A DNA stretch of 55,136 nucleotides from Gemmatimonadota bacterium (lineage in GTDB: Bacteria; Gemmatimonadota; Gemmatimonadetes; Palauibacterales; Palauibacteraceae). The stretch lies in NCBI GenBank assembly GCA_022825725.1, contig JAJDWE010000066.1:1-55136 (forward strand). The letters run 5' to 3'. Position numbers and translations under genes: made by a program. Positions within the stretch are counted from its first letter, which is position 1; the number at the start of each line of letters is the position of its first letter. Under the pieces are notes generated by a model. That model made no database searches and was not told the DNA's origin. It worked only from the letters and a program-made list of their open reading frames with translations. Positions 30,170-49,324 of this stretch are shown piece after piece.

Positions 30170-30175
30170 CGACGC

Positions 30176-31432: not shown

Positions 31433-31434
31433 CC

Positions 31435-32712
31435 GTGCTCCCGCGCGTCCTGGTCCGGCTCGCCCTCAGGAACCTGCGCCGTTATCTGCGCCGCACGGTG
31501 CTGACCGCCTCGGCGATGATCGTCGGCGGCGCATTCCTGGTCTGGTCGATCACGGTCGACGACGGCAGTCACGAGCAGTGGATCGATTCCGGGGTGCGGA
31601 TGGGGAGCGGACACGTGACCGTGGAGCGGCCCGAGTACCGGCTGCGCCGTCAGGTCGACAACCGGCTGACGGCGGACGTCAGCCGCGCCGCGGAGCAGGC
31701 GCTGGCCTCTCCGGAAATCGCGCCGCACGTCGTGGCCATGTCCGCCAGGCTCAGCATCAACGGTCTTGCGAGTTCGGCGGCCGGTGCGCGCCCGGCGCAG
31801 GTCGTGGTGGTCGACCCCGTCGCCGAAGCGGGTTTCGGCACGATCGACGATGCGGTGATCGAAGGGCGCTACCTCGAGCCCGACGATCGGCTGGCGGCCT
31901 ATGTCGGCGCCGATCTGGCCCGCAGCCTGGGACTCGAGATCGGATCGCGCTTCGTCGTGCAAGCGCAGGGTGCCGATGGCGAGATCACGGGGCAACTGCT
32001 CCACGTGACAGGGATCTTCCGCAGCCGCGTGTCCGCCATCGACCAGGCGACGATCCACATCACGCTCGCGACAGCCGGAGAGTGGCTCGGTTCCGGGAGC
32101 GACGTGACCAACGTCGCGGTCGTCCTGCAGAGCAGTGACAGGATCCGATGGGTCTCCAGCCGCTTGGCGCTGACGCTGGCCGAGCCGGTGGAACGCGGCG
32201 AGGCCCGCGTCGTTGGGTGGCGCGAGGCGAACCCTGTCCTGGCGGCGGGGATCGCGATCGACGAGTTCGGAAATTACGTGATTCAGGGATTCCTGTTCGT
32301 CATCATCGCGTTCGGGATCGTCAACACGGTGCTGATGTCGGTGATGCATCGCCAACGCGAGTTCGGCGTGCTTCAGGCGCAGGGGCTGACGCCGGGTCAG
32401 ACGGGCGCCGTCGTTCTCATCGAAGGCCTCACGCTCTCCGCTGCGAGCGGGCTGGTCGGCGTCGGCCTGGGACTCCTGGGCACCTGGTATTTCTTCGGCG
32501 ACGGGCTCGACACGTCGGTCTTCATGCAGGACATCGACGAGTTGACATTCGCGGGTGCCGCCGTCGACCCTATCATCGTCCCGATCTTCGGGGTGCGGCG
32601 CATCGCTCAGATTGTCGCCTTCATTCTCGGCATTGGCATTCTCGCCTCGGTCTATCCGGCGCTACGCGCCGCCCGGGTCAACGTTGCCGAGGCGATGAAG
32701 TTCGATCGATAG
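31435..32712 (+). CDS. FtsX/LolE-type ABC transporter permease (second)
   Basis: The GTG at 31435 is two bases past the stop of the first permease; open frame further upstream is a shadow. The 425-residue protein has the same four-helix layout with a periplasmic domain, and the closing segment LASVYPALRAARVNVAEAM. The loop NTVLMSVMHRQREFGVLQAQ is the coupling region that contacts the ATPase. It is a paralogue of the upstream permease and would form a heterodimer with it. Confidence 0.9.
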   Translation: MLPRVLVRLALRNLRRYLRRTVLTASAMIVGGAFLVWSITVDDGSHEQWIDSGVRMGSGHVTVERPEYRLRRQVDNRLTADVSRAAEQALASPEIAPHVVAMSARLSINGLASSAAGARPAQVVVVDPVAEAGFGTIDDAVIEGRYLEPDDRLAAYVGADLARSLGLEIGSRFVVQAQGADGEITGQLLHVTGIFRSRVSAIDQATIHITLATAGEWLGSGSDVTNVAVVLQSSDRIRWVSSRLALTLAEPVERGEARVVGWREANPVLAAGIAIDEFGNYVIQGFLFVIIAFGIVNTVLMSVMHRQREFGVLQAQGLTPGQTGAVVLIEGLTLSAASGLVGVGLGLLGTWYFFGDGLDTSVFMQDIDELTFAGAAVDPIIVPIFGVRRIAQIVAFILGIGILASVYPALRAARVNVAEAMKFDR

Positions 32713-32797
32713 CCGCTCTCGTGCCGGCCCCTCGCCGCTCAGCAGGAATCGGCCCCGGCGGCTGGCCGCATGCCGGGCCGGGGACGGCGGATTCTAT

Positions 32798-32812
32798 TCA
32801 CATTCGATGTGA
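32798..32812. promoter_or_regulatory. Perfect inverted repeat overlapping the ATPase ribosome site
   Basis: The sequence TCACAT-TCG-ATGTGA has perfect 6-base arms. Its right arm touches the GAGG Shine-Dalgarno at 32811-32814 of the ATPase gene starting at 32819. It could be an operator or a small hairpin that limits translation. No regulator gene is visible in the window. Confidence 0.3.
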
Positions 32813-32818
32813 GGTGTC

Positions 32819-33520
32819 ATGGCAGTGCGCGATACGGTAGCCGCCCGGACCGACGGCGTCTGGAAGGTCTTCGAGCAGGAAGCCGAATCTGTGCAGGCGG
32901 TCCGCGACGTCAGCCTGGCCATAGAGCGTGGCGAGTTCACCGCGCTCGCGGGGCCTTCGGGCTCCGGCAAGACGACGCTGCTGAATCTGATCGGTGGCCT
33001 CACCCGCCCCACGCAGGGACGGGTCTGGGTCGCCGGGCGCGAGGTGAGCCGCATGTCGAACCAGGAGCTGGCGCGGCTCCGGCTTGAGGAGGTGGGCTTC
33101 GTCTTCCAGGCCTATAACCTGCTTCCCGTGCTCACGGCGTTGGAGAATGCGGAATTCCCGATGCTCCTCCAGGGCGTGCCGGCGGAGGAGCGTCAGGCGC
33201 GGGTCCGCGGACTTTTTGCTCGGACGGGAATGGAAGGACTTGAAGACCGGCGCCCGGGCAAGCTTTCCGGCGGCCAGCAGCAGCGGGTCGCCGTCGTGCG
33301 TGCGGTGGCCAGCCGCCCGGCCTTGGTGCTCGCGGACGAGCCGACGGCGAACCTCGACTCGGTCACCAGCGAAGCGCTCCTCGATGTCATGGGCGAGCTG
33401 AATCACGACCTCGGCGTGACCTTCGTCTTCGCCACCCACGACAGCCGCGTCATGGAGCGGTCTCGGCGTCTGGTCCGCATGGTCGACGGCACGGTGCGTG
33501 ACGACGAGCGTCGATCCTAG
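32819..33520 (+). CDS. LolD/MacB-type ABC transporter ATP-binding protein
   Basis: The 233-residue ATPase has Walker [10 protein letters not shown], the Q-loop [20 protein letters not shown] typical of LolD/MacB, signature [14 protein letters not shown] and Walker [14 protein letters not shown]. It energises the two FtsX-type permeases. The 106-base gap before it carries an inverted repeat near its ribosome site, so its expression may be tuned apart from the permeases. The gene is followed 44 bases later by the unrecognised protein at 33565, linking the transporter set to the RiPP genes. Confidence 0.92.
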
Positions 33521-33564: not shown

Positions 33565-34680
33565 ATGGACATCCACGAGGCGATAGCGATCAGCCAGGAG
33601 CGGCTGGCGGGCGAAGGCGCCACCATGCATGACCTGCTCGGGCACCTGCGAGACAGAATCTCTCCCGTTCTGATCGGGGAGCAGGAGTGGGAACACCTGC
33701 TGGCACGGGCGGGGACCCTGCCGATCACCATGGGTGCCCAGCCGTTCGGTTTCGAGCTGCCGTTGCACGACAGTCGGCCGCGGGCGGATTTCGGAGTCTC
33801 GCTGGCGAGCGGCAACCGCTCGGGCGCGTTTTTCGAAGAGAAGGCGCGACGCGATCCGGCGGATCGCACGGCAGCGGCGGTCCGTCGCCTGTTTCGCAGC
33901 ATGGAGGCCGCGGACTCGCCCCTGCGCGCGATTGTCGGCCGCAAGTTGATGCTGGAATACGACATCGGGTCGGGCGGCGATGGCGACCCGCAGCCGGGGA
34001 TGTTCCTGCGGCCCAACGAACGGATGATCTTCGGCGGCGCCGGGCAGCAGCACGACGTCGGTGTCGTGGTCGACGGACTCGTGGCCTGTCACGGCCTGGA
34101 ACCGAGCGCCGCAGAGCGGAGCAACGCCGAGCGGGTGTACCTGGCGCAACCGGAAGACACTCGCCTCGACTCGTTCGGCCTGTTTCCGTCGCGCGCACGC
34201 ACGATCCGCCTGGCGATCATGGGCTTTGCCGGGCAGCGGGATGTCCGGTCCTTCCTCGAGGGAATTGCCTGGCCCGGGAACATCGCGACCGTGGAGACGG
34301 TGCTTGCACGCTTCGGCGAGCGCACGCACGTCGTCAGGACCGGTGTGAACGTCGACGTGCAGGCGGCTGGCATCGGTCCGACGCTCGGCTTGACGCCCAT
34401 AGTCAAGCAGAGATATGCGGCTGCTTCCCGGGTCTGGATCGATGGCCTGACGGATTGGCAGCCGGTGCTGGAGGCCCTGCGACACGAGGACCGTGTAGTG
34501 CCGGAGAAAGTCGCGGCGCTGGCCGGCTGGGTCTCGCAACCGACCATTCTGTTCGGCAGAACCGGGCGGTTCGTACTCTTGCGCGGAATTCACCACATTA
34601 AGCTGGTCATCGCCGGAGATCGGGTTGAACAGATCAAGGCCTATGTCTACATGGTGCTTTCGGGTGCCATCGCGCCCTGA
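33565..34680 (+). CDS. Unrecognised 371-residue protein of the RiPP locus
   Basis: I do not recognise this family. The protein is soluble, with no signal peptide or membrane helix. A helical N-terminal part (about residues 1-60) is followed by a compact alternating alpha/beta region. Distinctive segments are FGFELPLHDSRPRADFGVSL, MFLRPNERMIFGGAGQQHDV, IGPTLGLTPIVKQRY and the end GIHHIKLVIAGDRVEQIKAY. The last piece, a beta strand with HIKL followed by a Lys-Ala-Tyr strand, has a faint likeness to the closing strands of some barrel-type transferases, but this is too weak for a call. It lies between the ATPase gene and the halogenase-like gene on the same strand, in a position usual for a tailoring or substrate-supply enzyme. 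Confidence 0.7.
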   Translation: MDIHEAIAISQERLAGEGATMHDLLGHLRDRISPVLIGEQEWEHLLARAGTLPITMGAQPFGFELPLHDSRPRADFGVSLASGNRSGAFFEEKARRDPADRTAAAVRRLFRSMEAADSPLRAIVGRKLMLEYDIGSGGDGDPQPGMFLRPNERMIFGGAGQQHDVGVVVDGLVACHGLEPSAAERSNAERVYLAQPEDTRLDSFGLFPSRARTIRLAIMGFAGQRDVRSFLEGIAWPGNIATVETVLARFGERTHVVRTGVNVDVQAAGIGPTLGLTPIVKQRYAAASRVWIDGLTDWQPVLEALRHEDRVVPEKVAALAGWVSQPTILFGRTGRFVLLRGIHHIKLVIAGDRVEQIKAYVYMVLSGAIAP

Positions 34681-34773: not shown

Positions 34774-36105
34774 GTGCCCGGGGAGGTCGCCACGGTGAAG
34801 GAACTCGGCAGCACGTCGTGCAGGAAGATTGCAGTCATCGGACGCGGCACCGCGGGCGCGCTGGCCGCCGCCAGCGTATCGCGGTTGCACCCGGAGCGCG
34901 ATCATGAGCTGCACCACATCTACGATTCACGCATTCCGATCATCGGCGTGGGCGAAGGAAGTTGGCCCGGTCTTGTCCGCGACCTGCAGCAACTGTCGCA
35001 GTTGCCCCACGAGACGGTTCAGCAACGCCTGAACGGCACGCGCAAGTTCGGCAACCGCTTCGAGGGCTGGGGTCGACGCCGGCAGGATTTTACGCACTAC
35101 TTCACGCCGCAACAGGTGGCCTACGCCTACCACCTGTCGGCCGACCTGATGGCGGACCTGTTGTGCGCGAGTACGCAGGCCCGCCACATCGACGCGAAGG
35201 TGACCGCGATCAGGAGGGTGGACGGAGGCGCGCAGCTGGAGTTCGAGGGCCGTGAGTCCGAGCGGTACGACCTGGTCTTCGATGCCCGCGGCTACCCGCG
35301 GCAACTGGACCCCGAGGAGCACATCGACATTTCCTTCATCCCCACGAACTGCGCCGTCATTCGCCGCGGCCCCCCGGTCATCGAGGCGCCGCCGGACGCG
35401 CCGGTCCGGGAACCTACGTATACCCGTGCGGTGGCGCGTCCGCACGGATGGGTGTTCGTCATTCCGCTGACCGTGCACACATCCTACGGCTATGTCTTCA
35501 ACAGGGACGTGTCCGATCTCGAGGCGGTCGAGGCGGACTTCGACGAGCTCCTTGCGGAGGAGGGTGTGTCGAATTTCGAGCAACGCGCCGTCATTCCGTT
35601 TCCTAATTTCGTCCACCGCCGGATCTATGATGGGGCGGTGGTCCGCGTCGGGAATGCCGCCGCCTTCATGGAGCCGCTCGAAGCGACCGCCATCAGGCTG
35701 GCGCAACTGCAGGTCGCGCTGGTCCTGCGGATGCGGTTCCACCGGCCGGCGGAATATGTGCAGGGCGACGCGCCGGTCATCAACCGCTCTCTGGTCACCG
35801 ATGCGCTCGCAGCGGGCCTGTTCGTCGGTTGGCACTACTGCTCGGGTTCGAAGTACGACAGTGCGTTCTGGCGCCACGCCCGCGACCGCGTGTGGCCGAA
35901 CTACCGCGAGGCCGCCGATCCCCTGGTCGCGGACTGTTCCGCCTTGAGAAAGTTCGACGAGATGATCGAACTGGTCGACGCGCAGATCCCGGATCCGGCG
36001 GACTGGGATCGGCAGTGCGCGTTCTTTCCCATGAGCAGCTTCGCGCAGATCGCCCACGGTCTGGGCGCGCCATTGTGGGGGAAGCGCGACTCTCAGCCGA
36101 CGTAG
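34774..36105 (+). CDS. Tryptophan-halogenase-like FAD-dependent protein
   Basis: The 443-residue protein has the FAD-binding GxGxxG-type motif as GRGTAG (residues 23-28), the halogenase segment IIGVGEGSWP, and Lys91 in TRKFGNRFEGW, which aligns with the catalytic lysine of PrnA-type halogenases. Glu303 in FMEPLEATAI aligns with the catalytic glutamate of the PLEST motif. The WxWxIP motif that blocks monooxygenation in halogenases is only partly kept as GWVFVIP. GTG start at 34774; a second GTG at 34792 is possible. A reduced flavin partner is not seen nearby. The core peptide has exactly one Trp, a natural target for chlorination or bromination, although oxidation is also possible because of the altered WxWxIP motif. 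Confidence 0.82.
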   Translation: MPGEVATVKELGSTSCRKIAVIGRGTAGALAAASVSRLHPERDHELHHIYDSRIPIIGVGEGSWPGLVRDLQQLSQLPHETVQQRLNGTRKFGNRFEGWGRRRQDFTHYFTPQQVAYAYHLSADLMADLLCASTQARHIDAKVTAIRRVDGGAQLEFEGRESERYDLVFDARGYPRQLDPEEHIDISFIPTNCAVIRRGPPVIEAPPDAPVREPTYTRAVARPHGWVFVIPLTVHTSYGYVFNRDVSDLEAVEADFDELLAEEGVSNFEQRAVIPFPNFVHRRIYDGAVVRVGNAAAFMEPLEATAIRLAQLQVALVLRMRFHRPAEYVQGDAPVINRSLVTDALAAGLFVGWHYCSGSKYDSAFWRHARDRVWPNYREAADPLVADCSALRKFDEMIELVDAQIPDPADWDRQCAFFPMSSFAQIAHGLGAPLWGKRDSQPT

Positions 36106-37328: not shown

Positions 37329-37430
37329 CGTCTCTAGAACCTCGTCCTCCCTCCGTTGGCGCCCACGGTCACGCCGAGGCCGTGACCTGCTTCAGCGTTG
37401 GCGCCGAAGTCGGCACCGGGCACTCGGACG

Positions 37431-37439
37431 TGCTATATT
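37431..37439 (+). promoter_or_regulatory. Extended -10 promoter candidate for the RiPP secretion operon
   Basis: TGCTATATT is an extended -10 element (TGn plus TATATT), in an AT-rich dip of otherwise GC-rich DNA. No good -35 is seen 17 bases before, as is allowed for extended -10 promoters. It lies about 70 bases before the adaptor gene and would read the adaptor, both exporters, the fusion protein and YcaO. Confidence 0.45.
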
Positions 37440-37510
37440 TTACCCATTCCCCGCTCAATCCGAACGGGATTGTCCTTGCTCGATACCCGGTGGGGAGGCG
37501 ATGCAGGGTC

Positions 37511-38062
37511 GTGTTCAATAATCCGTTTGACTCGTTTCACGATACCGTTGCCGAAGCAAAGCGGGAACGGGAACAACTCGACCGGCTGCTGACGATTTCC
37601 ACGCCGCGGGAGCGCCTGCTCGTCGCCGCCGTCGCGCTGTGGTTGTTCATCTTCGTGGCGTGGCTCTTCTTTGGCAACGTAGCCCGCAGCCTCGCGGTGG
37701 ACGGTGTCCTGGTCGACCCCGGCACAAACCTGTCCGAAGCCGGCCGGTCCGTGCAGGCGCTCGTCTGGATCGAGAACGATGTCGCGCCGCAGATCAGGGC
37801 AGGGATGTCGGCGGTGCTGGAGCTGGATGCGGCGGATGGAGAAGCGGGCACAATGAGCGCGGAGGTCGCGGCAGTTTCCGCCGTTCGCTTATCCGGGGTT
37901 CCCGCGGCCTTCGAGTCCGCGGTGCCGGTATCCGTGCACCGCCTCGATATCGTGCTGAATGAGAGCCTCGACCTTGCTTCCATTGCGGGCAGGGGATGCC
38001 GGATCGTCATCGAGGTCGGCACGCAATCTCCGATCGCATTCTTGCGGATCGGCCGGTCATGA
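37511..38062 (+). CDS. Short HlyD-like adaptor, NHLP secretion type
   Basis: The GTG at 37511 gives 183 residues. The region LDRLLTISTPRERLLVAAVA followed by one membrane helix (about residues 33-53) and VDGVLVDPG matches the N-terminus of NHLP-system secretion proteins of the HlyD family. The C-terminal part (VQALVWIENDVAPQIRAGMS onward) is the beta-barrel domain. The lipoyl and coiled-coil hairpin domains between them are missing, so this is less than half the usual length of about 400 residues. No frameshift is seen that would hide them. A six-codon open frame with its own GGGGAGG site (37501-37521) overlaps the start and may couple translation. The stop is two bases before the C39 exporter start. 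Confidence 0.7.
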   Translation: MFNNPFDSFHDTVAEAKREREQLDRLLTISTPRERLLVAAVALWLFIFVAWLFFGNVARSLAVDGVLVDPGTNLSEAGRSVQALVWIENDVAPQIRAGMSAVLELDAADGEAGTMSAEVAAVSAVRLSGVPAAFESAVPVSVHRLDIVLNESLDLASIAGRGCRIVIEVGTQSPIAFLRIGRS

Positions 38063-38063
38063 T

Positions 38064-40223
38064 ATGGCGTTGAGGGTCACCACGCCGATTGTGTTGCAGA
38101 TGCACGCGTCGGAATGTGGGGCCGCCTGCCTCGGCAGCATCCTCGCCTACTTCGGACGCTGGGTTCCGCTGACGGAATTGCGGGAAAGATGCGAGGTGAG
38201 TCGGGACGGGAGCAGTGCGGCGAGCATCGTGCGCGCCTCCAGGCACTACGGTCTCGAATGCAGTGGACTCAGCGTACGCACCGGTCAGCTGAAGAAGTTG
38301 CAGTTGCCTCTGATCGTGTTCTGGCAATTCAGCCATTTCGTTGTCCTCGAGGGGTTCGACGGTCGCCACTTCCATCTCAATGATCCGTCCACGGGGCGGC
38401 GCAGGCTTTCGGCGGAAGAATTCGACAGGGACTACAGCGGAATTGCGCTGCAATTCAAGCAGAGCTCCGGTTTCGAACCCGGCGGCGAACGGCCCGGATT
38501 GTTCACGCAGCTGGGTACCCTGCTCACCGGATCGCGGAGCGCGCTTGCCTGGGTGATTGCCAGCAGCCTCATGTTGACCCTGCTGGCTTTTGTCGTCCCC
38601 GCATCTCTCAGCGTTTTCGTGGACGATGTTCTGGAGAACGGGGGGCCCTGGGGCGGACTCGTGGCGGCCCTGCTCGGCGCCGGGGCCCTCGTATACATCC
38701 TTTCCCTGCTCAAGCACCGGTTCCTGAAGCGGTTCGCAGTCCGGATTTCGGTGATGGGCTACAGTCGAGGCGTGTCGCGGCTGCTGCGGTTGCCGTTGGA
38801 GTTTTTCGAACACCGTCTCGTAGGCGACCTGACGGACCGGGTCTCGTCCATCGACAGAATATCGAGAAACCTGACGGAACAGTTTCTGGTGCTCATAATC
38901 GACATGGGAATGAGCGCTGTACTGCTCATCGCCATGTTGGTCTACGATGTCCGGCTCACGCTGGTTGTACTGTTTCTGGCTTTCTTGCACGGCGTGCTGG
39001 CACACTTTCTCAACGGGCCCAGGGCGGTTCGAAGCCAGGCGATGAGGCGTGAACAGGGACTGTTGATCGGCGTCGGCATGCAGATGATGAATCACGTCGA
39101 CCATCTGCGCATGGCGGGATCGGACGACCGTTTCTTTTCGCGCTGGAGCGGCCATCAGGCGCGCGAACTGCATGCGCGCCGGCGCTATGCCGCACTGGGC
39201 TCCGTCAACACCGCGCTCCCGGGCATGATCGCCGCACTTCGCAGCGCGGCGGTCCTGGGCATCGGGGGAAGCCTGGTCATGGTCGGAGAGATGACCCTGG
39301 GCACGCTGGTCGGGTTCTATATCCTGGCCGAGATGTTTCTGGCGCCGGTTGGGCGTTTCCTGGAGTTCGCCGGGAAGCGCCAGGCGCTCGAAACCGATCT
39401 GCAGCGACTCGAAGACATTTCAACAGCCGCGGAAGACCCCGCCCTCAGCCGCCGGAGTTCGCAATCGGAGTCGATTCCCACCTTCAAGGGGCGACTTCAG
39501 CTCACCGGCTCACTCGAGCTGCGCGACGTCAGCTTCGGCTTCAACAGGAGCCGGCCCGCTCTGATCAAGGACTTCAACCTCCTGATCAGGCCGGGGCAGC
39601 GGGTTGCCGTGGTCGGGCCCAGCGGTTCCGGCAAGTCGACCCTCGCGCGTCTGATTGCCGGTGTCCATCAGCCCTGGTCCGGCGAAATCCTGTTCGATGG
39701 CCATCCCCGGGATGAGATTCCCGAGGAGGTGCTGCGGCGGTCCATCTCCATGGTGGATCAGGAGGTCGTGCTCTTTTCCGCGTCCGTGCGCGACAACATC
39801 ACTCTGTGGAACCCCGCCGTTCCGGATGAGGCCATCTTCGCGGCGACACGCGACGCCCAGATCCATGACGAGATCCTGCATCGGCCGGACGGGTATTCGA
39901 CCCGGGTCGAGGAAGGCGGCGTGAATTTCAGTGGCGGCCAGCGCCAGCGGCTGGAGATCGCCCGCGGGCTGTTGGGCAATCCGACGCTGCTCATTCTGGA
40001 TGAGGCGACCAGCGCCCTCGATGCCGCGACAGAGGAATACGTCGATGACGCCCTGCGACGCCGTGGTGTCACCTGCCTGATCGTGGCGCACCGGTTGAGC
40101 ACCGTGCGGGACTGCGACGAGATCATCGTGCTCGACAAGGGCGTCGAAGTGCAGCGCGGGACGCACGACGAGCTGATCGCGGATCACGACGGCACGTACT
40201 ACAAGCTGGTCAGGTCCGGCTGA
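38064..40223 (+). CDS. C39-peptidase ABC exporter (PCAT), NHLP type
   Basis: The 719-residue protein has an N-terminal C39 peptidase with Cys18 in HASECGAACLGS, His91 in QFSHFVVLEG and Asp107 in LNDPSTG. A six-helix membrane domain follows (about residues 160-440), then an ATPase with Walker [10 protein letters not shown] at 518-526, signature FSGGQRQR and Walker B LLILDEATSALD. The architecture is the peptidase-containing exporter that cleaves leader peptides after Gly-Gly, Gly-Ala or Ala-Gly sites and exports the product. It sits between the adaptor and the second exporter, which is the usual gene order of NHLP secretion sets. The precursor leader ends AISAG, a plausible cleavage site for this peptidase. 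Confidence 0.93.
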   Translation: MALRVTTPIVLQMHASECGAACLGSILAYFGRWVPLTELRERCEVSRDGSSAASIVRASRHYGLECSGLSVRTGQLKKLQLPLIVFWQFSHFVVLEGFDGRHFHLNDPSTGRRRLSAEEFDRDYSGIALQFKQSSGFEPGGERPGLFTQLGTLLTGSRSALAWVIASSLMLTLLAFVVPASLSVFVDDVLENGGPWGGLVAALLGAGALVYILSLLKHRFLKRFAVRISVMGYSRGVSRLLRLPLEFFEHRLVGDLTDRVSSIDRISRNLTEQFLVLIIDMGMSAVLLIAMLVYDVRLTLVVLFLAFLHGVLAHFLNGPRAVRSQAMRREQGLLIGVGMQMMNHVDHLRMAGSDDRFFSRWSGHQARELHARRRYAALGSVNTALPGMIAALRSAAVLGIGGSLVMVGEMTLGTLVGFYILAEMFLAPVGRFLEFAGKRQALETDLQRLEDISTAAEDPALSRRSSQSESIPTFKGRLQLTGSLELRDVSFGFNRSRPALIKDFNLLIRPGQRVAVVGPSGSGKSTLARLIAGVHQPWSGEILFDGHPRDEIPEEVLRRSISMVDQEVVLFSASVRDNITLWNPAVPDEAIFAATRDAQIHDEILHRPDGYSTRVEEGGVNFSGGQRQRLEIARGLLGNPTLLILDEATSALDAATEEYVDDALRRRGVTCLIVAHRLSTVRDCDEIIVLDKGVEVQRGTHDELIADHDGTYYKLVRSG

Positions 40224-43165
40224 TGCGGGAAACGGGGCCGGGGTACACGTCCATCGCGGAACTCGCCGCCCGCTCCGGCGAGTCCGTGCCCTGCTCCGGC
40301 AACCTGCCGGTGAAGCTCGACGACCCGGACACCGTCTGGTTCATCGATCAGGGCGCCGTCAATCTGTTCCTGGTCGAATTCCGGGACGGCGTGGAGCAGG
40401 CGGCGCCGCAGCATCTGCTGCGCCGCGAATCGGGCCAGCTGCTGCCGGGCGTCGCACCGGACGGACCACGCGATGGGGAAGACACCACGCTCAGCCTGAT
40501 CGCCAAGGGATCGCCGGGCACCCTTCTGAAACGCCTCCCGGCCTCCGTGCTGTCCGAGGTCGATCCGGCGGAGCTGGCGGAACAGACCGATACCTGGGTG
40601 ACCGCGATTACGGACACGCTCTCGCGTTTTGCGAGCCGCCTTCCGCGTCCGACTGCGCTGGCCAAGCCCGGTCCGATGCAGACCCCGGCTCCCTGTACGC
40701 TGTCCGTGCAGCGCGGCGTCGTGTGGGTGTCCGAACCGCCGCGCGGCACCAGCCTCTTCATGGATCTGGTCGATCAGGCGGAAATTGTCGAGGCGAGCGG
40801 CCCACACGAAGCGGTGATACCGCTGACGCGGACAAGCTGGCTCATCCTGTCCGACGAGACGACACTCTCGGGCAGGTCGACCGAGACGCTGGCAAAGCAG
40901 GGCAGCCTGCCCTCGGCGCTCGCTTCCTTTCACGCGGTTGCCTTCGCCCTGGAGCGCCTGAACCGCCGACTGGCCGTGGTCGACGATGCGAATCTCGAGC
41001 GCGCGCGGACCACAAGCCGCCGCACGGTCGAGAGAGCTGCGCGGCAGCGGCTCTTCAACATCTATGATCTGCCGGTGGATCGGGATGCCGGTGTCGAGGA
41101 CACGTCGCTGGCGGACGCCCTGCAGGCGATCGGACGCCGTGAAGGAATCGATTTCAAGATCCCGGCACGCTCGGATCCTTCCGGTGATCCGGTCAACCTC
41201 GTTGATATTCTCGATGCGTCGGGCGTGCGCGCCCGGCGCGTGCGGTTCGGGGCCGAGGGCGCCTGGTGGCGCGGCGACAGTAACGCGATGCTGGCATTCC
41301 GCGCCGAAGACGGCCGGCCCGTGGCGCTCCTGCCGGGATGGTTGGGGCGCTACCGGGAATTCGATCCGGTCAGCAAGCGCAGCGTCTGGATGACGGCGGA
41401 TCGTGCCGCTGCGCTGGCGGACGAGGCCTGGATGTTCTACCGGCCACTGCCGGTGGGGAACGTGAAGGCCGCGGACCTGCTGAGGATCGCGCTGCGGGGA
41501 TCGGCGGCGGATCTGGCGCGGCTGGTGCTGGCCGGGCTTCCGGGCGGCCTGATCAAGCTCGTGCCAGCGCTCGCGCTCGGGTTCGTTGCGAACCGGACGG
41601 CGGCGGGCGGAGCCGCCGGAGCGCTCTATGTCGTGGCCATGGCGGTGGCGGGGTTCGGCCTGCTCGGCGCACTGCTGCACCTGCTCCAGAGCAAGGTGAT
41701 GATGCGGATCGAGGGTCGCTCGGCTTCACGGGTCGAAGCGGCCTTCTGGGACCGTCTCATGCGCCTTCCGTCAAGCGTTCTGCACGGCCGTCGGGCTGGC
41801 GATCTGGCCGTGTCGGGGATGACGTTTCAGCATCTTCGCGACGGGGTGCAGAGAGCCGCGGCCGACGGCCTGCTGTCGATCGTTTTTCTGCTTCCGGTGT
41901 TTGGCGTGATCTTCTTCTACGATGCCACGCTCGGGACCGTTGCTTTCGGCTTCAGCCTGGCTTCGCTCCTGGTCACCGTCGTCCTCGGGCTGCGCCAGAT
42001 TCCGCCCCATGGGCGGCTGATCCGCGCAGCGCGTCGCGTCTCCGGCCGGCTATTCCAGATCGTGGGCAGCATAGGCAAGCTGCGTGTGGAAAACGCGGAA
42101 GCGTCGGCTTTCGCCATCTGGGCACGGGACTACCGGGAGCAGAAACGCACGGAGCTCGAGCTGGGTGTGCTCGAGGGACATTCGCGGGCGTTTGGCGCCG
42201 CACTCCCCTTTCTTTCCGCCGGGGTTCTGCTGTTCGCGGCCGTAGCCGCGGGCGACGGGAACCTCCCGGTCGGCGATTTTCTCGTCGTCTACCTCGTCTT
42301 CATCGCCTTCCAATCCGCCATCGTCCGGCTCGGCGAGTCCTTTGGCGCGGTCGCCGCCATGCTCCCGGCGTTCGACCAGGTGCGCCCCCTGCTCGCCGCG
42401 GTGCCCGAGGCCGAGGTCGAGGGGGCGCCGGTCGAGTATCTGGGCGGCGACATTGTCTTCGACCGCGTTTCCTACCGGTACGATCCCGACGGCCCGTTGA
42501 TCCTCGACGATGTCACGATTCGTGCCCGCCCCGGGGAATTCATCGCGATCGCAGGCGAGTCCGGCGCCGGCAAGAGCACCCTCTTCCGGTTGGCGCTTGG
42601 ATTCGACCGACCCACCGCCGGCTCAGTGTGCTACGACGGACGTGATCTGAGGAACCTGAACCTGAAACAGGTGCGCCGCAGAATTGGCGTGGTGCCGCAG
42701 TCCGTTGGACTCCATCCCCTCGATCTGTGGGACAACCTGGTCGGTCACCACGATGAGGTGGCGAGTGACGAGGTATGGACGGCGGCGCGAGTCGCCGACG
42801 TCGAAGAGGAGATCAGGGGCATGCCCATGGGCATGATGACCATGGTCGGCACGAGCGGAACTGTCCTGTCGGGCGGTGAGAGCCAGCGCGTTTCGATCGC
42901 CCGGTCGGTGATCGGCAACCCGCGAATCATGCTCTTCGACGAGGCGACCAACTGGCTGGATAACGAGAGCCAGGCCAGGGTCATGCGAAACCTCACCGCC
43001 CTGACCTCCACCCGGGTCGTCATCGCGCACCGCCTGTCCACACTGGAACAAGCCGATCGCATCTACGTGTTGCAGGCCGGAAAAGTCGTACAGAGCGGCT
43101 CCTTCAACGAACTCATGGAGGTCGACGGGGTGTTCAGGGACCTGGTCAGGAGGCAGGTCGCCTGA
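40223..43165 (+). CDS. NHLP-type second ABC exporter, permease/ATPase fusion
   Basis: The 980-residue protein matches the large second exporter of NHLP secretion sets. A long N-terminal cytoplasmic region (about residues 1-420) holds a degenerate, non-peptidase segment with YREFDPVSKRSVWM, and a membrane domain follows at about 425-700. The ATPase has Walker A GESGAGKST at 778-786, signature LSGGESQRVS at 882 onward and Walker B IMLFDEATNWLD. The start overlaps the PCAT stop as TGATG, so the two are translationally coupled. It probably forms a heterodimer or a second step with the PCAT. Its N-terminal region shows no intact C39 triad, so leader cleavage is left to the upstream protein. Confidence 0.9.
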   Translation: MRETGPGYTSIAELAARSGESVPCSGNLPVKLDDPDTVWFIDQGAVNLFLVEFRDGVEQAAPQHLLRRESGQLLPGVAPDGPRDGEDTTLSLIAKGSPGTLLKRLPASVLSEVDPAELAEQTDTWVTAITDTLSRFASRLPRPTALAKPGPMQTPAPCTLSVQRGVVWVSEPPRGTSLFMDLVDQAEIVEASGPHEAVIPLTRTSWLILSDETTLSGRSTETLAKQGSLPSALASFHAVAFALERLNRRLAVVDDANLERARTTSRRTVERAARQRLFNIYDLPVDRDAGVEDTSLADALQAIGRREGIDFKIPARSDPSGDPVNLVDILDASGVRARRVRFGAEGAWWRGDSNAMLAFRAEDGRPVALLPGWLGRYREFDPVSKRSVWMTADRAAALADEAWMFYRPLPVGNVKAADLLRIALRGSAADLARLVLAGLPGGLIKLVPALALGFVANRTAAGGAAGALYVVAMAVAGFGLLGALLHLLQSKVMMRIEGRSASRVEAAFWDRLMRLPSSVLHGRRAGDLAVSGMTFQHLRDGVQRAAADGLLSIVFLLPVFGVIFFYDATLGTVAFGFSLASLLVTVVLGLRQIPPHGRLIRAARRVSGRLFQIVGSIGKLRVENAEASAFAIWARDYREQKRTELELGVLEGHSRAFGAALPFLSAGVLLFAAVAAGDGNLPVGDFLVVYLVFIAFQSAIVRLGESFGAVAAMLPAFDQVRPLLAAVPEAEVEGAPVEYLGGDIVFDRVSYRYDPDGPLILDDVTIRARPGEFIAIAGESGAGKSTLFRLALGFDRPTAGSVCYDGRDLRNLNLKQVRRRIGVVPQSVGLHPLDLWDNLVGHHDEVASDEVWTAARVADVEEEIRGMPMGMMTMVGTSGTVLSGGESQRVSIARSVIGNPRIMLFDEATNWLDNESQARVMRNLTALTSTRVVIAHRLSTLEQADRIYVLQAGKVVQSGSFNELMEVDGVFRDLVRRQVA

Positions 43166-43168
43166 TCG

Positions 43169-44470
43169 ATGAAAAGACCCATGGACGCGGACGATCTCCT
43201 CGTATCGAGAGCTGCTGAAGACAGCGACTTTCGCGAACGTCTACTCCGGAGACCCAGGGAGACAGTCGAGACGGAATTCGGCGTGACGCTGGCCGAGGAC
43301 CATGAGATTCACGTGCACGAAGAGACGTATACCGCGACGCATGTCGTGCTCCCGCCGCGGAGCAAGCTCAGCGAGGCCGAACGAGAGGCGGCGAGGACCG
43401 GTGCGGCATCGCTCGAGTTTCTTCGAAGGACGCTCCACGACCCCGCGCCGCCCCTTCGGCCCCCTGCACTGAAAGAAAAGAAGGCCCGAGGAAACGGGGT
43501 CACCTCCGAGGCGCTGGCCAGGGCGGCGAGAGAAGGGATCCGCCGCGGGCTTGCCTTCCTGGAATCCACGATCGACGAGAATGGGGCCTGGCACTGCATC
43601 CGGTTCAATGTGGCCGACCCGGAGATCCCAAGGCATTTCGAGAGGCCTCCTTTCGTGTCGGCTCTCTGCGCGCTTGCCCTCGAGAGCTCCGATGAGCCGC
43701 AGGCCAGGGCGATATGCACCGCTACAAAGGCCTATCTCATCGACACCATCGAATATCCCGGATTCTGGCGGTACTACCGTCACCTGCCCACGGATCTCGA
43801 CAGTACCACGCTTTGTTCGCTCGTCATCGGGACGCACCCCTGGATCTGGCTGGGGAGGAACGTTCCGGGGATGCTGGCGAATCGCGACGAGGAAGGCCGC
43901 TTCATGACCTGGGTGCTGGCGGAAGACGAACCCGACGTCGTGTCGCGCTTTCGTATCGAGGCCGACCCGGTCGTCAATGCGAATGTCCTCGCCTACCTGG
44001 GCGACCATCCGGGAACCAGGGATGCGCGGCGATGGTTGGAAGCCCTGGTGACGGAGGGCAACCTCGAGGGCTCGTCGAAGTGGTATCCCGACACGGTCAC
44101 GATCTACTATGCGATCACACGCGCGATGATTCGTGCGGAGCCCGCTCTCGATTCCCTGCGCTCGATACTCGCGGATCGTATCCTCGGCCTGCGTGACGAG
44201 AAGGGAGGCTTCGGCAATGTCCTTCAGACCGCTCAGGCGGTGTCGGCGCTCTACAACAGCGGAAGCCTCGAGAGCATCGACGCGAAGCGCGAGGTGGAGA
44301 GACTGTTGAGTTCGCAGCGCGGGGACGGCAGCTGGCCGGAGCTGCTTGCGTTCGGCGACCAGTCGTTGAAGTGGGGCGTGGCAGGGCGGATCGGGCACGG
44401 CTCCGAGGCCGTGACCTCCGCGTTTTGCATTGAGGCCCTGGAGCGTCTCGTCGAGGTGCTGGGGGCCTGA
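43169..44470 (+). CDS. NHLP leader domain fused to terpene-cyclase-like toroid
   Basis: The 433-residue protein begins with about 78 residues that align along their length with the leader of the precursor at 46912: DFRERLLRRPRETVETEFGV matches the FRQQLLADPRAAISGELGI region, HEIHVHEETYTATHVVLPP matches MNIRIHESDMQTVHLALPP, and EREAARTG matches EQMEAISAG. After a charged linker (about 90-115) comes an alpha/alpha-toroid domain: DLDSTT at 209-214 resembles the DxDD acid motif of class II terpene cyclases, and QRGDGSW at 383-389 is a QW repeat. ATG is three bases past the exporter stop. The leader-like domain probably docks the enzyme to pathway proteins or export machinery; alternatively it is a relic. 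Function not known. Confidence 0.8.
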   Translation: MKRPMDADDLLVSRAAEDSDFRERLLRRPRETVETEFGVTLAEDHEIHVHEETYTATHVVLPPRSKLSEAEREAARTGAASLEFLRRTLHDPAPPLRPPALKEKKARGNGVTSEALARAAREGIRRGLAFLESTIDENGAWHCIRFNVADPEIPRHFERPPFVSALCALALESSDEPQARAICTATKAYLIDTIEYPGFWRYYRHLPTDLDSTTLCSLVIGTHPWIWLGRNVPGMLANRDEEGRFMTWVLAEDEPDVVSRFRIEADPVVNANVLAYLGDHPGTRDARRWLEALVTEGNLEGSSKWYPDTVTIYYAITRAMIRAEPALDSLRSILADRILGLRDEKGGFGNVLQTAQAVSALYNSGSLESIDAKREVERLLSSQRGDGSWPELLAFGDQSLKWGVAGRIGHGSEAVTSAFCIEALERLVEVLGA

Positions 44471-44472
44471 GC

Positions 44473-46821
44473 GTGTCGGGCGATACGGCACGGAAGCCCT
44501 CGATGGCAGCGAAGGAGCAGGCGCGTCCCCGGCGCGGGATCCTGACCCGAACGACTCGTGCGGACCAGGGCATCGTCAAGCTTCCCGCGCTCACCCCGCA
44601 CCTCCGATTCCACGATATCGGCGAGGCGCAGGTGCTTCTCGTCTCCGAGTCGTTCAATACGCTTCTGCACGGCAGGCTGCACTGCGATCTGCTGCCGCTG
44701 CTCGATGGTCGGCACCCATGGGACGAGATTGTCGCAGCTCTCGAGGGCGCCCATGCGGCGACCGATATCCTTGCGGCCATCGCCACGTTCGCGGCCAAGG
44801 GCTACCTGGTCTCCGCCGATCACGGCATGGACCAGCGCCAGGCAGCCTACTGGTCGTCGCTCGGCGCGTCGCCGCGCTGGGTCGAAGAGCGGCTGGCGCA
44901 GTCGCGCGTCACGGTTGAAGGTGACGATGGCGCGCTCGTCCGGCATCTCGAGGCGAACGGCGCCAGGGTGGGGACCGGCGAGCCTGAGCTCACCGTTGTT
45001 GTCTGCGGCGACTATCTCGATGCCCATCTCGCGGAGGTGAGTCGGCGCCAGCTCGAGGCGGGAGCGCCGTGGACGCTGGTGCGGCCGAGCGGCATGGAGC
45101 CGCTCTTCGGCCCCATCTTTCGGGCGGACAGGCAGGGCCCCTGCTGGGACTGCCTCGCGTACCGGCTGCGCAGCCACCGCGAAGTGCACGGCTTCCTGCG
45201 CAACGTCGCCGGCGAGGAAGCCGCCTTCAGGCCGTTCGCGGCTCAACCCCCTGTGCTGGAAGCGATGTACGGGCTGATCGCGGCGGAGATCGTCAAATGG
45301 CTGGCGCTGGGCGAATCGGCCCCGATTCACGAACACGCGATCGCGATGAATATCGCTTCTTTCTCAAGCTCGCAGCATCGGGTCGTGCGTCGACCGCAGT
45401 GCCTGGCCTGCGGCGACGAAGCCCTGCACCGGCCGGATCGACCACCGGTTCCGGTGTCTCTGAAGGCGAGTCCCAAGGCCCATCACAACAGCGGCGGCGC
45501 GCGCGCCGTGGCGCCCGGAGCCACGCTGGCGAAGTACCGGCACCTGGTGAGCCCGATCAGCGGTGTCGTGACCTGGCTGTCGCGCACCACCGATGAGGCC
45601 GACTCCTGGCTGCACGTCTACTGGGCCGGGAGCAATCTCGGCATGAGAAGCCGGAGCCTGAGTTCGCTCAGGCGCAGCCTGCGCAGCAAGAGCGCCGGCA
45701 AGGGCAGCACTCGACAGCAGTCCAGGGTCAGCGCCCTCTGCGAGGCGGTCGAGCGCTATTCAGGCGCGCGTCATGGGGACGAGATCCGTATCCGCAAGCG
45801 ATTCAGCGAGTTCGCCGGGAGGGAAGAGGCGATCCACCCCAACGACGTGCAACTGTTCAGCGAGAGTCAGCTCGACGACGCGGAGAGCATCAACGCGAAA
45901 GGCCACCCCTACAACATCGTCCCGCCGCGTCTCGAGCCCGACGCCGAAATCGACTGGACGCCGGTGTGGTCGCTGACGCGGCAGCGGCACCGCTACTTGC
46001 CGACATCCATCCTCTACAGCATGGGAGCCGAGGAGCGCGGCCCCGCAGACCTGATCGCCGATTCGAACGGCTGCGCCGCGGGGAACACCCTGGAAGAGGC
46101 CATCCTGCAGGGCTTCTACGAACTGGCCGAGCGCGATGCGTTCGCCATCTGGTGGTACAACCGGTTGCGCGTGCCGGCAGTCGATCTTTCGAGCTTCGAC
46201 GACGAGTACCTCGCAGCGGCCGCGGACTACTACGGCCGCCACGAGCGGGATCTATGGATGCTCGACGTCACCTCCGACATCGGCATTCCCACCTTCGTTG
46301 CGCTCTCGCGCCGGCCGGACGCCCGGACCGAAGACATCATCTACGGTGCCGGGACCCACGCCGACCCGCGCATAGCCGCCCTGCGCGCGCTCTGCGAATT
46401 GAACCAGTGCCTCACCTGGCTGCCGCGTCCCGGGGCGGAGGACGGCCGGCCCAGGATCGATGATCCGCTGGCCCTCTGGTGGTGGAAGACGGCCCGGCTC
46501 GCCGACTGTTCGTGGCTGGCGCCGGCGCCGGACGAGCCGCCCCGAAAGGCTTCGCAGTATCCCGTGACCGAATCGGCGGACACGCGGGAAGATGTGGAGC
46601 ATTGCCGCGCGCTCGTCGAGGCCGGGGGCCTGGAGTTCCTTGTGCTGGATCAGACGCGGCCCGATATCGGCATGCCCGTGGCGCGGGTCATCGTGCCGGG
46701 CATGCGCCACTTTTGGGCAAGGTTTGCCCCCGGGCGGCTGTACGACGTGCCCGTCAGCATGGGCTGCCGCGAGTCCCCGCTCGTCGAAGCGGACCTGAAT
46801 CCCGCGCCTGTGATCGCGTGA
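44473..46821 (+). CDS. Fused E1-like/YcaO azoline-forming cyclodehydratase
   Basis: GTG start at 44473, two bases past the previous stop; 782 residues. The N-terminal 340 residues are a TOMM E1-like leader-binding domain, with the winged-helix-type LPLLDGRHPWDEIVAALEG and a zinc tetrad Cys224, Cys227, Cys310 and Cys313 (CWDC, CLAC). The rest is a YcaO domain with ATP and magnesium residues Glu424 and Glu427 in LCEAVERYSG, Ser531-Asn532-Gly533, and NTLEEAILQGFYELAERDA (538-556). It uses ATP to turn Cys (or Ser/Thr) of a leader-bearing peptide to thiazoline or oxazoline. The C-terminus, DLNPAPVIA, is a shortened form of the PxPxP tail seen in many TOMM YcaOs. No flavin dehydrogenase for azoline oxidation is nearby. 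Confidence 0.93.
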   Translation: MSGDTARKPSMAAKEQARPRRGILTRTTRADQGIVKLPALTPHLRFHDIGEAQVLLVSESFNTLLHGRLHCDLLPLLDGRHPWDEIVAALEGAHAATDILAAIATFAAKGYLVSADHGMDQRQAAYWSSLGASPRWVEERLAQSRVTVEGDDGALVRHLEANGARVGTGEPELTVVVCGDYLDAHLAEVSRRQLEAGAPWTLVRPSGMEPLFGPIFRADRQGPCWDCLAYRLRSHREVHGFLRNVAGEEAAFRPFAAQPPVLEAMYGLIAAEIVKWLALGESAPIHEHAIAMNIASFSSSQHRVVRRPQCLACGDEALHRPDRPPVPVSLKASPKAHHNSGGARAVAPGATLAKYRHLVSPISGVVTWLSRTTDEADSWLHVYWAGSNLGMRSRSLSSLRRSLRSKSAGKGSTRQQSRVSALCEAVERYSGARHGDEIRIRKRFSEFAGREEAIHPNDVQLFSESQLDDAESINAKGHPYNIVPPRLEPDAEIDWTPVWSLTRQRHRYLPTSILYSMGAEERGPADLIADSNGCAAGNTLEEAILQGFYELAERDAFAIWWYNRLRVPAVDLSSFDDEYLAAAADYYGRHERDLWMLDVTSDIGIPTFVALSRRPDARTEDIIYGAGTHADPRIAALRALCELNQCLTWLPRPGAEDGRPRIDDPLALWWWKTARLADCSWLAPAPDEPPRKASQYPVTESADTREDVEHCRALVEAGGLEFLVLDQTRPDIGMPVARVIVPGMRHFWARFAPGRLYDVPVSMGCRESPLVEADLNPAPVIA

Positions 46822-46835
46822 GGAGAAGGAAGGAA

Positions 46836-46860
46836 CGGGCTCCGGAAGTCCCGGAGCCCG
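46836..46860. terminator. Bidirectional hairpin between convergent YcaO and precursor genes
   Basis: A perfect 10-base inverted repeat, CGGGCTCCGG and CCGGAGCCCG, surrounds a five-base loop (AAGTC). It stands 15 bases past the YcaO stop and 52 bases past the precursor stop on the other strand. Long T runs are lacking, so it is an imperfect intrinsic terminator or an mRNA 3' stabiliser. Confidence 0.6.
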
Positions 46861-46911: not shown

Positions 46912-47163
46912 CTACCAGCAGCAGCAGAGGCCGGCCGAGATGGCTTCCATCTGCTCCTCGGTCATGTGCGGATCCGGCGGCAGCGCGAGGTGCACCGTCT
47001 GCATGTCGCTCTCATGGATCCGGATGTTCATCGAATCGGGAATTGTAATCCCCAATTCGCCGCTGATCGCAGCCCTTGGATCTGCGAGAAGCTGCTGCCT
47101 GAACCCCGCGTCCACGGTGGACTTCTCAACGATTTGCGCAAGCATTTCATCGCCGCTTCTCAT
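46912..47163 (-). CDS. NHLP/TOMM precursor peptide with core LCCCW
   Basis: The 83-residue peptide has a nitrile-hydratase alpha-like leader: FRQQLLADPRAAISGELGI, then IPDSMNIRIHESDMQTVHLA and LPPDPHMTEEQMEAISAG, the standard NHLP pattern. An Ala-Gly site lies at the leader end and only Leu-Cys-Cys-Cys-Trp follows (codons CTC TGC TGC TGC TGG, then TAG). The three Cys suit YcaO cyclisation and the single Trp suits the halogenase-like enzyme. GGAGG is six bases before the ATG. It is convergent to YcaO and 103 bases downstream of the AlkB-GlnE fusion, with its own candidate promoter in that gap. The extreme shortness of the core (five residues) is unusual. If cleavage is after Ala-Gly and all Cys are cyclised, the arithmetic mass is 626.20 minus 54.03, or about 572.17. 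Confidence 0.9.
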   Translation of the reverse strand: MRSGDEMLAQIVEKSTVDAGFRQQLLADPRAAISGELGITIPDSMNIRIHESDMQTVHLALPPDPHMTEEQMEAISAGLCCCW

Positions 47164-47169
47164 GGCAAT

Positions 47170-47174
47170 CCTCC
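47170..47174 (-). promoter_or_regulatory. Ribosome binding site of the precursor gene
   Basis: Minus-strand GGAGG, six bases before the precursor ATG at 47163. It supports the chosen start and real translation of this small gene. Confidence 0.6.
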
Positions 47175-47266: not shown

Positions 47267-49324
47267 CTACCGGGCCGGGCCATGCGCGAGCGCGGCGAGG
47301 TCGGTTGCAACTCGGGACGCGGCAGCGGCTTCGCGCAACTCGGCCACCGGCACTTCGCGGGCCGCAGTGTGTCCCGGAGCGTCTCGCAACGCCTGCGCGA
47401 ACCGTTCCTCGATTTCGTCAGCGCCCGACACGAACACGCAGCGCGCCCGCGCGAGCGCCACAAGCTCGCGACTCGAACCTGGATTCCGGAGCTGCTCCTC
47501 GAACGCGGCGAGAGACTGTAGGCTGTCCAGCCCGCCGCGCGGGACCGGCGCCAGCAGCAGGTTGTTGCGCGACAGCGCACGCAGCGCCTTGCGGAAGCGG
47601 CGGCACAGCGCTTCGTAGTACCTGGCGGGTTCACCGTCGTACACGAACCGGACGTCGAGCTCCGTCCCCGGCAGCGCCTCTCCACCGGCCAGAGGCCCGA
47701 GAACCGCCACCGCCACCCCGCCGCTCGCATCCGGAACACCCCGGTCGGCGAAGTCCTCCTTCACCGCCGCCAGTACGGTGGCGATTGAGGCTTCGGCGAC
47801 GTGCGACAGCGCCGTGGTCGCCTCGCCCACGGACAGGCTGCCACGCATCGCGTGCACGGCGACCTGGAAGACCTTGCCGTTCGACCACTCCAGCGCCGCC
47901 TCCACCGCCTCACCGGCGTCCTGCACGGGGATGTCGTCGAGTTGCGCCCTCATCTCCGAGAGGCTGAGTTCATGCGTCCAGTACAGGCGCGCCAGCCCGC
48001 ACCGGGCGATCGCTTCCGATTCGGAATCCGACAGGAACCCCTCCGGCAGCTCCAGATCCGTGAATTCCCGCTCCCGCAGCGTGTCGAGCAGGGCCGGTGA
48101 ACGGTTTATCCACTCGGCAAGGCCGGGGGCGGCGGCATGAATCTCCGCGATGACGTCGAACGCGTCGGGGCGCGCCGCGAAGGCCCGGCTGTCGTAGGCG
48201 CTCCAGTCTTCGATTTCGGGATAGAACTGGGCCCGCTGACGATCGACCAGGGGATCCATCGTCTCGAACCATCGTCCCGGGAAGAGGGCCAGACCATTCA
48301 TCTGAGCGTAGCTCCCCGGCAACTGCGGCGAGTCCGACTCGCCGTGATGCTGCAGGAGCGGGTAGCGCCGGTTGGACGTGTGGTGGTCGGCGTGGCGCTG
48401 CATGTTGTAGTACAGCCAGTTGGTGAACTTGTACGCGGCGCTCCAGGCGTGCCTCGGTTTCACCGGCTCGAACCTGCCCGTGGGCATGCGGATGCGGCGC
48501 AGTGCGTAGTGCTGCACGTAGTTGCTGATCTTCATCGAGAAGACGACGCTGCCGCACAGGGCAAGGTAGAGCAGCAAGGCCCAGGGGCCGCCCCACAGGA
48601 AGATCAGCCCGTACCAGAAGACGATCTGCACGGCGTAGCGCCAGAACGCGTTCGTGTAGTGCCAGAGCGGCAGGTGACGGCGCGTCAGCCGGCGGTGTTC
48701 GAACCGCCAGGCGCCCACCAGGTTGCTCGCGACCTCCGTGGGCAGGTATTGCCAGAAACTCAGGCCCTTCGGCGCGGATCCGGGGTCGAGCGGCGTACAC
48801 ACGCGGGGGTGGTGAATGTAGACGTGCTCGGTCGCATAGTGCGGGTAGGAGACGGAGGCCAGCAGAAACTCGCCGAGCCGGCGTTCCCACACGGCGCGCC
48901 GATGAACCAGTTCGTGCCCTACGATGAAGACCGTCTGCGCTACGAGCGTCAGGATGGCCGCCGTGACTCCGATTTCCCAGAGCGCGAGGCCGCCGACGAC
49001 CAGCACCTGCCAGAGCGCAAACACGAACGTCACCGGCCAGAGCGCCGCCCACAGCCATAGCGAGAGCTTGTACAGGAACAACTGGCTCTCGCCGGTCGTG
49101 GCCGGATCCATGTTCCGCTCCTCCAGGCCCAGGAGCCGGTCGAACCGGTCCGCAAGCATGAAGAAGGCGAACGGACCCGCAAGCCACCAGCCGCCGTACA
49201 TGACGGCAGCGAACACGAGCGGGAACATGAGAAGCGGAACGAAGTGCGGGAGCGCGTTCGCGACGGAGGGCTCGACGACCCGCCCGCCCGCAGCTATCGA
49301 GGCGCCGGAACTATGTGCTTCCAT
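47267..49324 (-). CDS. AlkB-type di-iron hydroxylase fused to degenerate GlnE-like domain
   Basis: Residues about 1-375 of this 685-residue protein are an AlkB-like membrane di-iron oxygenase. The His boxes are HELVHRR (about 137-143), EHVYIHHPRVCTPLDPGSA (from 166), the AlkB-specific NYVQHYALRR (about 268) and QRHADHHTSNRRYPLLQH (from 309), with about six membrane segments. The remaining part resembles the helical and nucleotidyltransferase core of glutamine-synthetase adenylyltransferase (GlnE): FQVAVHAMRGSLSVGEATTA, then AVAVLGPLAGGEALPGTELD followed by VRFVYD. The usual GSDLDL active-site pattern is changed to GTELDV, so activity is doubtful. ATG at 49324 with AGAGGA upstream. It precedes the precursor on the same strand. 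Its likely role is oxidation of the peptide or of a lipid attached to it; inference. Confidence 0.82.
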   Translation of the reverse strand: MEAHSSGASIAAGGRVVEPSVANALPHFVPLLMFPLVFAAVMYGGWWLAGPFAFFMLADRFDRLLGLEERNMDPATTGESQLFLYKLSLWLWAALWPVTFVFALWQVLVVGGLALWEIGVTAAILTLVAQTVFIVGHELVHRRAVWERRLGEFLLASVSYPHYATEHVYIHHPRVCTPLDPGSAPKGLSFWQYLPTEVASNLVGAWRFEHRRLTRRHLPLWHYTNAFWRYAVQIVFWYGLIFLWGGPWALLLYLALCGSVVFSMKISNYVQHYALRRIRMPTGRFEPVKPRHAWSAAYKFTNWLYYNMQRHADHHTSNRRYPLLQHHGESDSPQLPGSYAQMNGLALFPGRWFETMDPLVDRQRAQFYPEIEDWSAYDSRAFAARPDAFDVIAEIHAAAPGLAEWINRSPALLDTLREREFTDLELPEGFLSDSESEAIARCGLARLYWTHELSLSEMRAQLDDIPVQDAGEAVEAALEWSNGKVFQVAVHAMRGSLSVGEATTALSHVAEASIATVLAAVKEDFADRGVPDASGGVAVAVLGPLAGGEALPGTELDVRFVYDGEPARYYEALCRRFRKALRALSRNNLLLAPVPRGGLDSLQSLAAFEEQLRNPGSSRELVALARARCVFVSGADEIEERFAQALRDAPGHTAAREVPVAELREAAAASRVATDLAALAHGPAR

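Follow-up and report, generated by a model that had tools for sequence, protein, structure and literature searches.

What does a precursor gene make when only five residues follow its leader, and what part do genes for a prenyltransferase-like fold and a terpene cyclase play beside it? The question is raised by positions 46912-47163 (minus strand) of a contig of a Gemmatimonadota bacterium (JAJDWE010000066.1, 55,136 nucleotides); this whole stretch is hereafter the window, and the bacterium is the source. We propose, at a probability of about 60%, that the product of this gene is a brominated tris-thiazoline pentapeptide, likely also carrying a cyclised isoprenoid. A first-pass annotation had described the precursor, which has a nitrile hydratase-type leader (NHLP), and its core LCCCW; two neighbours in the cluster, one for a predicted prenyltransferase fold and one for a terpene cyclase, were overlooked. 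The precursor and its core are already in print, and the terpene half is a prediction. The features of the precursor gene are:

46912-47163, minus strand: srpE-type NHLP precursor, 83 amino acids (78-residue leader plus core LCCCW), above the cut-off of TIGR03793
46915-46929, minus strand: core LCCCW (CTC TGC TGC TGC TGG), with a probable cut site after AISAG as judged from the published SrpE core
47170-47174, minus strand: GGAGG ribosome-binding site, six bases 5' of the ATG

The ATG opens an open reading frame (ORF) that ends in AISAG-LCCCW-stop, as first annotated. Its product scores 66.2 bits against TIGR03793, the NCBIfam NHLP leader model (cut-off 50.9), and 37.1 bits against Pfam NHase_alpha (cut-off 27.2); among solved chains, the NHLP leader chimera 8tb1 matches it best by sequence (E 5.5e-11). 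The source genome holds a single LCCCW precursor of this type. We found 658 homologues, and our statements about tails cover the 120 listed: every one of these ends in LCCCW, so the suggested search for the same CCCW end in relatives was borne out. Matches by tblastn in 103 loci include, once 60 longer NHLP-cyclase ORFs and 3 ORFs ending in LCCCG are set aside, 84 short ORFs that end in LCCCW and are not independent, as some genomes are counted twice. The tail common to the listed homologues excludes a frameshift or misassembly that cut a longer core and, together with the tblastn loci, a chance origin of LCCCW.

SrpE of the marine-sponge srp clusters has the core LCCCW, the cysteines of which are converted to thiazolines by the YcaO protein SrpC (PMC10858898, PMC10286304; published sources are cited throughout for the portions covered). 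The source cluster shares with these proteusins the core, the NHLP leader, a YcaO gene and a halogenase with the published residues, and by sequence the copy at 46912-47163 is a member of the SrpE family. The up to three thiazolines first foretold are thus those published for SrpE. Since the LCCCW precursor had been published, the finding as first stated is no discovery, contrary to the annotation, which knew of no NHLP peptide with so short an all-Cys core. A difference lies in the leader, in which an LXXXXL motif is important for enzyme binding: residues 66-72 are NLTEEQL in SrpE (PMC10858898) and HMTEEQM in the source, with the hydrophobic pair M67/M72 in place of L67/L72. Of the 120 listed homologues, 3 have strict Leu at both positions and 98 have Ile or Leu; Met at both is unmatched among them (0 of 120).

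Two further genes would act on this core:

44473-46821, plus strand: SrpC-type YcaO cyclodehydratase with a fused leader-binding region, 782 amino acids (PF02624, E 9.8e-97; TIGR03604 and TIGR03882 above cut-offs)
34795-36105, plus strand (ORF from 34774): SrpI-type Trp brominase (Trp_halogenase, E 5.6e-46)

The YcaO partner that had been named is therefore present, and the mass given for three dehydrations (572.17) was reproduced as 572.170. Among the ten window proteins scanned at the start, none was listed as an azoline oxidase, so we assume thiazolines; the remainder of the genome lay outside that scan. SrpI, which belongs to sponge microbiomes (PMC10286304), brominates the C-terminal Trp of SrpE with the leader attached and is an obligate brominase (PMC12615548). 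The source halogenase lies ~11 kb from srpE, and SrpI numbering fits it from the eighth codon, a GTG at 34795. It has the residues named or implied for SrpI at Lys84, Tyr102, Pro105-Gln-Gln-Val108, Tyr110 and Lys135, and it differs at position 109 (Ala, not Ser) and at position 80 (Asn, where a published digest implies Lys). By this test, which compares published residues rather than aligning the SrpI sequence itself, the source halogenase is an SrpI orthologue, and the predicted halogen is bromine. The monochlorination once considered gives way accordingly, and a simple brominated tris-thiazoline product has a computed mass of 650.080, versus 606.13 with chlorine.

The overlooked half of the cluster comprises two genes:

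33565-34680, plus strand: 371-residue protein with a predicted ABBA (PT-barrel) prenyltransferase fold, from structure prediction
43169-44470, plus strand: NHLP domain fused to a putative class II terpene cyclase, 433 amino acids, with DLDST at residues 209-213 and QRGDGSW at 383-389

The predicted structure of the 371-residue protein has five alpha-alpha-beta-beta repeats and a ten-stranded barrel, and on this model we predict a putative ABBA-type prenyltransferase. Conserved residues of its family, which may line the barrel, are E64, R210, R215, K346, K358 and Y360; the acid and basic ones are kept in 60 or 61 of 61 sequences. The NHLP part of the cyclase scores 27.8 bits against PF02979 (cut-off 27.2), matches 8tb1 by profile and reaches 44.7 bits against TIGR03793, below the cut-off of 50.9. 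The cyclase fold is an alpha/alpha toroid, with class II cyclases as its best matches. Its DxD[DT]T-type acid motif is DLDST in 49 of 55 cyclases and DLDSS in the other 6, and DLDST aligns with DLDTT of drimenol synthase. The QW motif (QRGDGSW in the source) occurs in 55/55. Sequence and model together predict a putative class II terpene cyclase. Structure alignments used 24 of the 60 listed relatives of the 371-residue protein and 24 of the 55 listed cyclases; motif counts were rerun over all of both.

Are these genes regular companions of srpE? Scanning named genomes gave 130 relatives, 80 of which were kept as loci. Their record titles name Gemmatimonadota, Alpha-, Gamma- and Deltaproteobacteria, Acidobacteria, Chloroflexi, Opitutales and others; a sponge genus appears in one title of the 80 (Spongia_Bin9), the genus Candidatus Palauibacter in one, and the remaining bins we take to be sponge bins. 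Local matches number 63 for ycaO, 58 for the 371-residue gene, 57 for the cyclase and 41 for the halogenase. Only 39 of the 80 loci have both 10-kb flanks, and in these the cyclase is matched in 38, ycaO in 37, the 371-residue gene in 29 and the halogenase in 25; the source's own 371-residue and halogenase genes would lie just beyond such a flank. The commonest full order (12/80 loci) is halogenase, srpE, 371-residue gene, ycaO, desaturase-like gene, NHLP-cyclase, ABC2, ABC1. Of the 79 whole genomes behind the loci, 71 have a match to the halogenase, 69 to the cyclase, 74 to the 371-residue protein and 67 to all three, so that relatives of the prenyltransferase-like and cyclase genes occur in most srp genomes tested; where the set of three is incomplete (12 genomes), the srpE contig ends less than 10 kb from the gene.

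Two of the loci (L025 and L029, genome G036) are titled Gammaproteobacteria, yet the same places occur in genome G320, which is placed in the same phylum and class as the source; their srpE is Gemmatimonadota-like (88-95% identical), and the title may be a mislabel. G320 holds two srp copies (contigs C126 and C160), the second with full-length cyclase and 371-residue genes and a halogenase matched only as two short pieces.

The gene content also varies with the core. Three genomes of the source's genus hold a relative that ends in LCCCG. A search with an LCCCG query found 112 proteins, 108 of them new: 100 of the new cores begin with LCCC, 7 have Ser for one or two Cys and 1 has another tail, with LCCCG in 33, LCCCW in 26, LCCCGI in 25, LCCCL in 6 and others more rarely. 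Among 52 papers with any of three core strings, the 20 listed all lack LCCCG. We then have, from 395 genomes of the phylum searched with a combined profile, 32 matching genomes, three of which (G022, G347, G373) gave no precursor match; the other 29, with G026 added from the family scan, yielded 30 precursors, namely 21 LCCCW, 8 LCCCG and 1 cut by a contig end (G335, set aside). These genomes overlap with the 79 above, so the tallies are not independent. Halogenase and cyclase are each found in 17/21 LCCCW genomes versus 0/8 LCCCG genomes, whereas the 371-residue protein is found in 18/21 and 8/8, respectively, its LCCCG relatives being 37-40% identical. Four LCCCW genomes (G027, G193, G204, G298) lack both halogenase and cyclase, and in each no more than 0.9 kb separates the precursor from a contig end. 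The six LCCCG loci that were read end to end have YcaO, the 371-residue relative and ABC1/ABC2, and no halogenase or cyclase match. The wider LCCC-X family of NHLP precursors also includes LCCCF and LCCCGW (L108-L110, L148-L151; P0122-P0229), and its members have their own YcaO/ABC clusters where these were read (LCCCG only).

A third kind of cluster comes from 4 of the 79 genomes (G073, G075, G091, G113), where the cyclase matches a second time, at 39-41% identity, in a form that lacks the NHLP part. In all four loci (L144-L147, two of them near-identical) a 371-residue-type gene (28-29% identical) stands beside this cyclase and an NHLP precursor lies at most 7 kb from it; NHLM exporters occur in three, and none of the four has a match to the source YcaO. 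The precursors end in IAPTDDSY (two), FAPGGDSW and YAWDC.

Published systems offer partial parallels. The prenyltransferase-fold and cyclase genes go unmentioned in the srp literature covered; the founding 2021 srp paper lies outside it and may report them. NctPC and ChrPC are prenyltransferase-cyclases of ribosomally synthesized and post-translationally modified peptides, and NctPC joins an ABBA-fold prenyltransferase to an MstE-like cyclase and places a C20 chain on Trp of a ribosomal peptide (PMC13290415). The source has the same pairing, but in two genes (33565-34680 and 43169-44470) rather than one fused protein, its cyclase being fused to NHLP instead; we therefore do not class it as an NctPC-type member, and it may work likewise. 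PalQ/PalX of Paenibacillus alvei combine an NHLP precursor, a C-terminal Trp and prenylation up to C15 (PMC10853753), but with an isoprenoid-synthase rather than an ABBA fold and, as described in the portion covered, in a three-gene cluster (kinase, precursor, prenyltransferase) without YcaO, halogenase or cyclase. MppC/MppE involve an ABBA-type prenyltransferase that requires a long structured leader and prenylates Trp (PMC12715784); they differ in being a lanthipeptide system with a Nif11-like leader and a C10 chain, and that source, as covered, mentions no terpene cyclase. From drimenol synthase (AsDMS) and the merosterolic acid synthase MstE the source cyclase differs in its N-terminal NHLP domain, at 16-20% identity.

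From what we observed (sequences, model folds, motifs and linkage) we infer every reaction that we assign to this organism. SrpC would use the leader and convert the three Cys to thiazolines, and SrpI would add bromine to the C-terminal Trp before the leader comes off; both steps are published for the namesakes and are extended to the source through family membership and shared residues, respectively. The ABBA-fold protein, judged by its fold alone, would prenylate the peptide, with the indole of Trp as the likeliest site. The class II cyclase may dock through its own NHLP domain where the precursor leader docks, and would protonate the chain through DxD and close the rings. The C39/NHLM exporters would then cut after AISAG and export the product. 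No fixed order is proposed for the SrpC, SrpI, prenyl-transfer and cyclisation steps.

Several observations speak against an isoprenoid on this peptide. The published native substrate is described without one in the portions covered (PMC10858898, PMC10286304). The 371-residue family has no useful match in Pfam or among PDB sequences and none there to any known prenyltransferase, so that its activity rests on a predicted fold; known ABBA families are likewise far apart in sequence. Lys127, invariant in the srp group, is lost in the distant group (compared without L146, which is nearly identical to L145), and one distant cyclase (L145) has Glu in place of the first Asp of DxD. We counted matches, whether or not the gene is intact: the G101 cyclase has five stop codons, and the halogenases of G053 and G090 are in two pieces each. 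G369 has halogenase pieces without the cyclase or the prenyltransferase-like gene. The contrast of 17/21 with 0/8 may be one evolutionary split, for which reason it is given as counts and not as a probability. Finally, LCCCG clusters keep the 371-residue relative (8/8 genomes) beside a core without any aromatic side chain, so the prenyl acceptor may be a group other than Trp.

Some of these points favour a simpler product, the bromo-tris-thiazoline LCCCW and nothing more, with the two terpene genes making a separate small terpenoid or using another substrate: the srp papers describe only thiazolines and bromine, the prenyl acceptor is putative, and LCCCG clusters retain the prenyltransferase-like gene. 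We nevertheless think this unlikely, as the NHLP domain on the cyclase points to peptide biosynthesis, the cyclase is absent from all eight genomes whose core lacks Trp, and the pair recurs near another NHLP precursor in all four loci fetched. That the NHLP-cyclase and the ABBA-fold protein are non-enzymatic chaperones or scaffolds, holding the precursor for SrpC and SrpI, would suit the NHLP domain and the distance of the ABBA-fold family from known enzymes; a scaffold would not need both DxD Asp and QW, kept in 55/55 cyclases, or the conserved acid and basic barrel residues, and we regard this explanation as improbable. Still less credible is the interpretation first given, a new, possibly chlorinated, metal-binding tris-thiazoline peptide: the core and YcaO are as it described, but the core was in print (PMC10858898), SrpI is an obligate brominase (PMC12615548), none of the 18 window proteins scanned matched a metal-uptake gene, and metal binding finds no support in these data. 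Nothing was found in favour of a truncated longer core, to which, given the uniform tails of the listed homologues, we attach next to no probability. We thus retain the brominated tris-thiazoline peptide, likely with a cyclised isoprenoid, as our preferred product.

The remaining features of the cluster are:

37382-38062, plus strand: short HlyD-type export partner (TIGR03794 weak, 19.9 bits, cut-off 156.2)
37959-40223, plus strand: NHLM export ABC transporter with C39 peptidase, ABC1 type, likely start 38064 (Peptidase_C39; TIGR03796 835 bits, cut-off 853.3)
40223-43165, plus strand: NHLM export ABC transporter, ABC2 type, 980 amino acids (TIGR03797 E 4.4e-198, 660 bits, cut-off 709.4)
46836-46860, no strand: 10-bp GC hairpin between the srpE and ycaO ends, from folding against shuffles
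47267-49324, minus strand: fatty-acid-desaturase-like domain plus GlnE-like region, 685 amino acids, matched in 52/80 loci

The srpE-type gene and ycaO are convergent with the hairpin in between, which is likely a terminator: the whole 90-nucleotide stretch has a folding z of -2.83, with equally good folds in 2/200 shuffles. The HlyD-type gene is conserved near srpE in 28/80 loci. The desaturase/GlnE-like protein adjoins ABC2 in four LCCCG loci (76-78% identity), and because it is kept there its gene is probably part of both clusters. Directly upstream of the 371-residue gene, 29366-33520 holds genes for a LolA-like protein, a MacB/FtsX-type permease and an ABC ATPase; the permease is also near srpE in 3/80 loci (92-95% identity).

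Our broader proposal, on which we are evenly divided, is that srp clusters, which are widespread, produce terpenoid peptides: LCCCW, brominated and with three thiazolines, would receive an isoprenoid from a new ABBA prenyltransferase family and be ring-closed by a class II terpene cyclase that bears its substrate's leader fold for docking. Other NHLP peptides that end, or nearly end, in an aromatic residue would be served by the same pair, and the LCCC-X family (LCCCG, LCCCGI, LCCCL and others) would have the Cys core in common, with no bromination or cyclisation in the one type examined (LCCCG). No native srp product is reported in the srp literature covered. If the terpene genes act on the peptide, mass searches for 572.17 or 650.08 would miss the product; neutral masses of 854.268 (C15, Br) and 922.331 (C20, Br) would be expected, ring closure alone leaving the mass unchanged. 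One leader fold would then be common to four enzymes (cyclodehydratase, brominase, prenyltransferase and terpene cyclase) and be borne by the cyclase itself, so that the role of leader docking would be directly testable, and the natural product would be quite unlike the srp peptide described so far.
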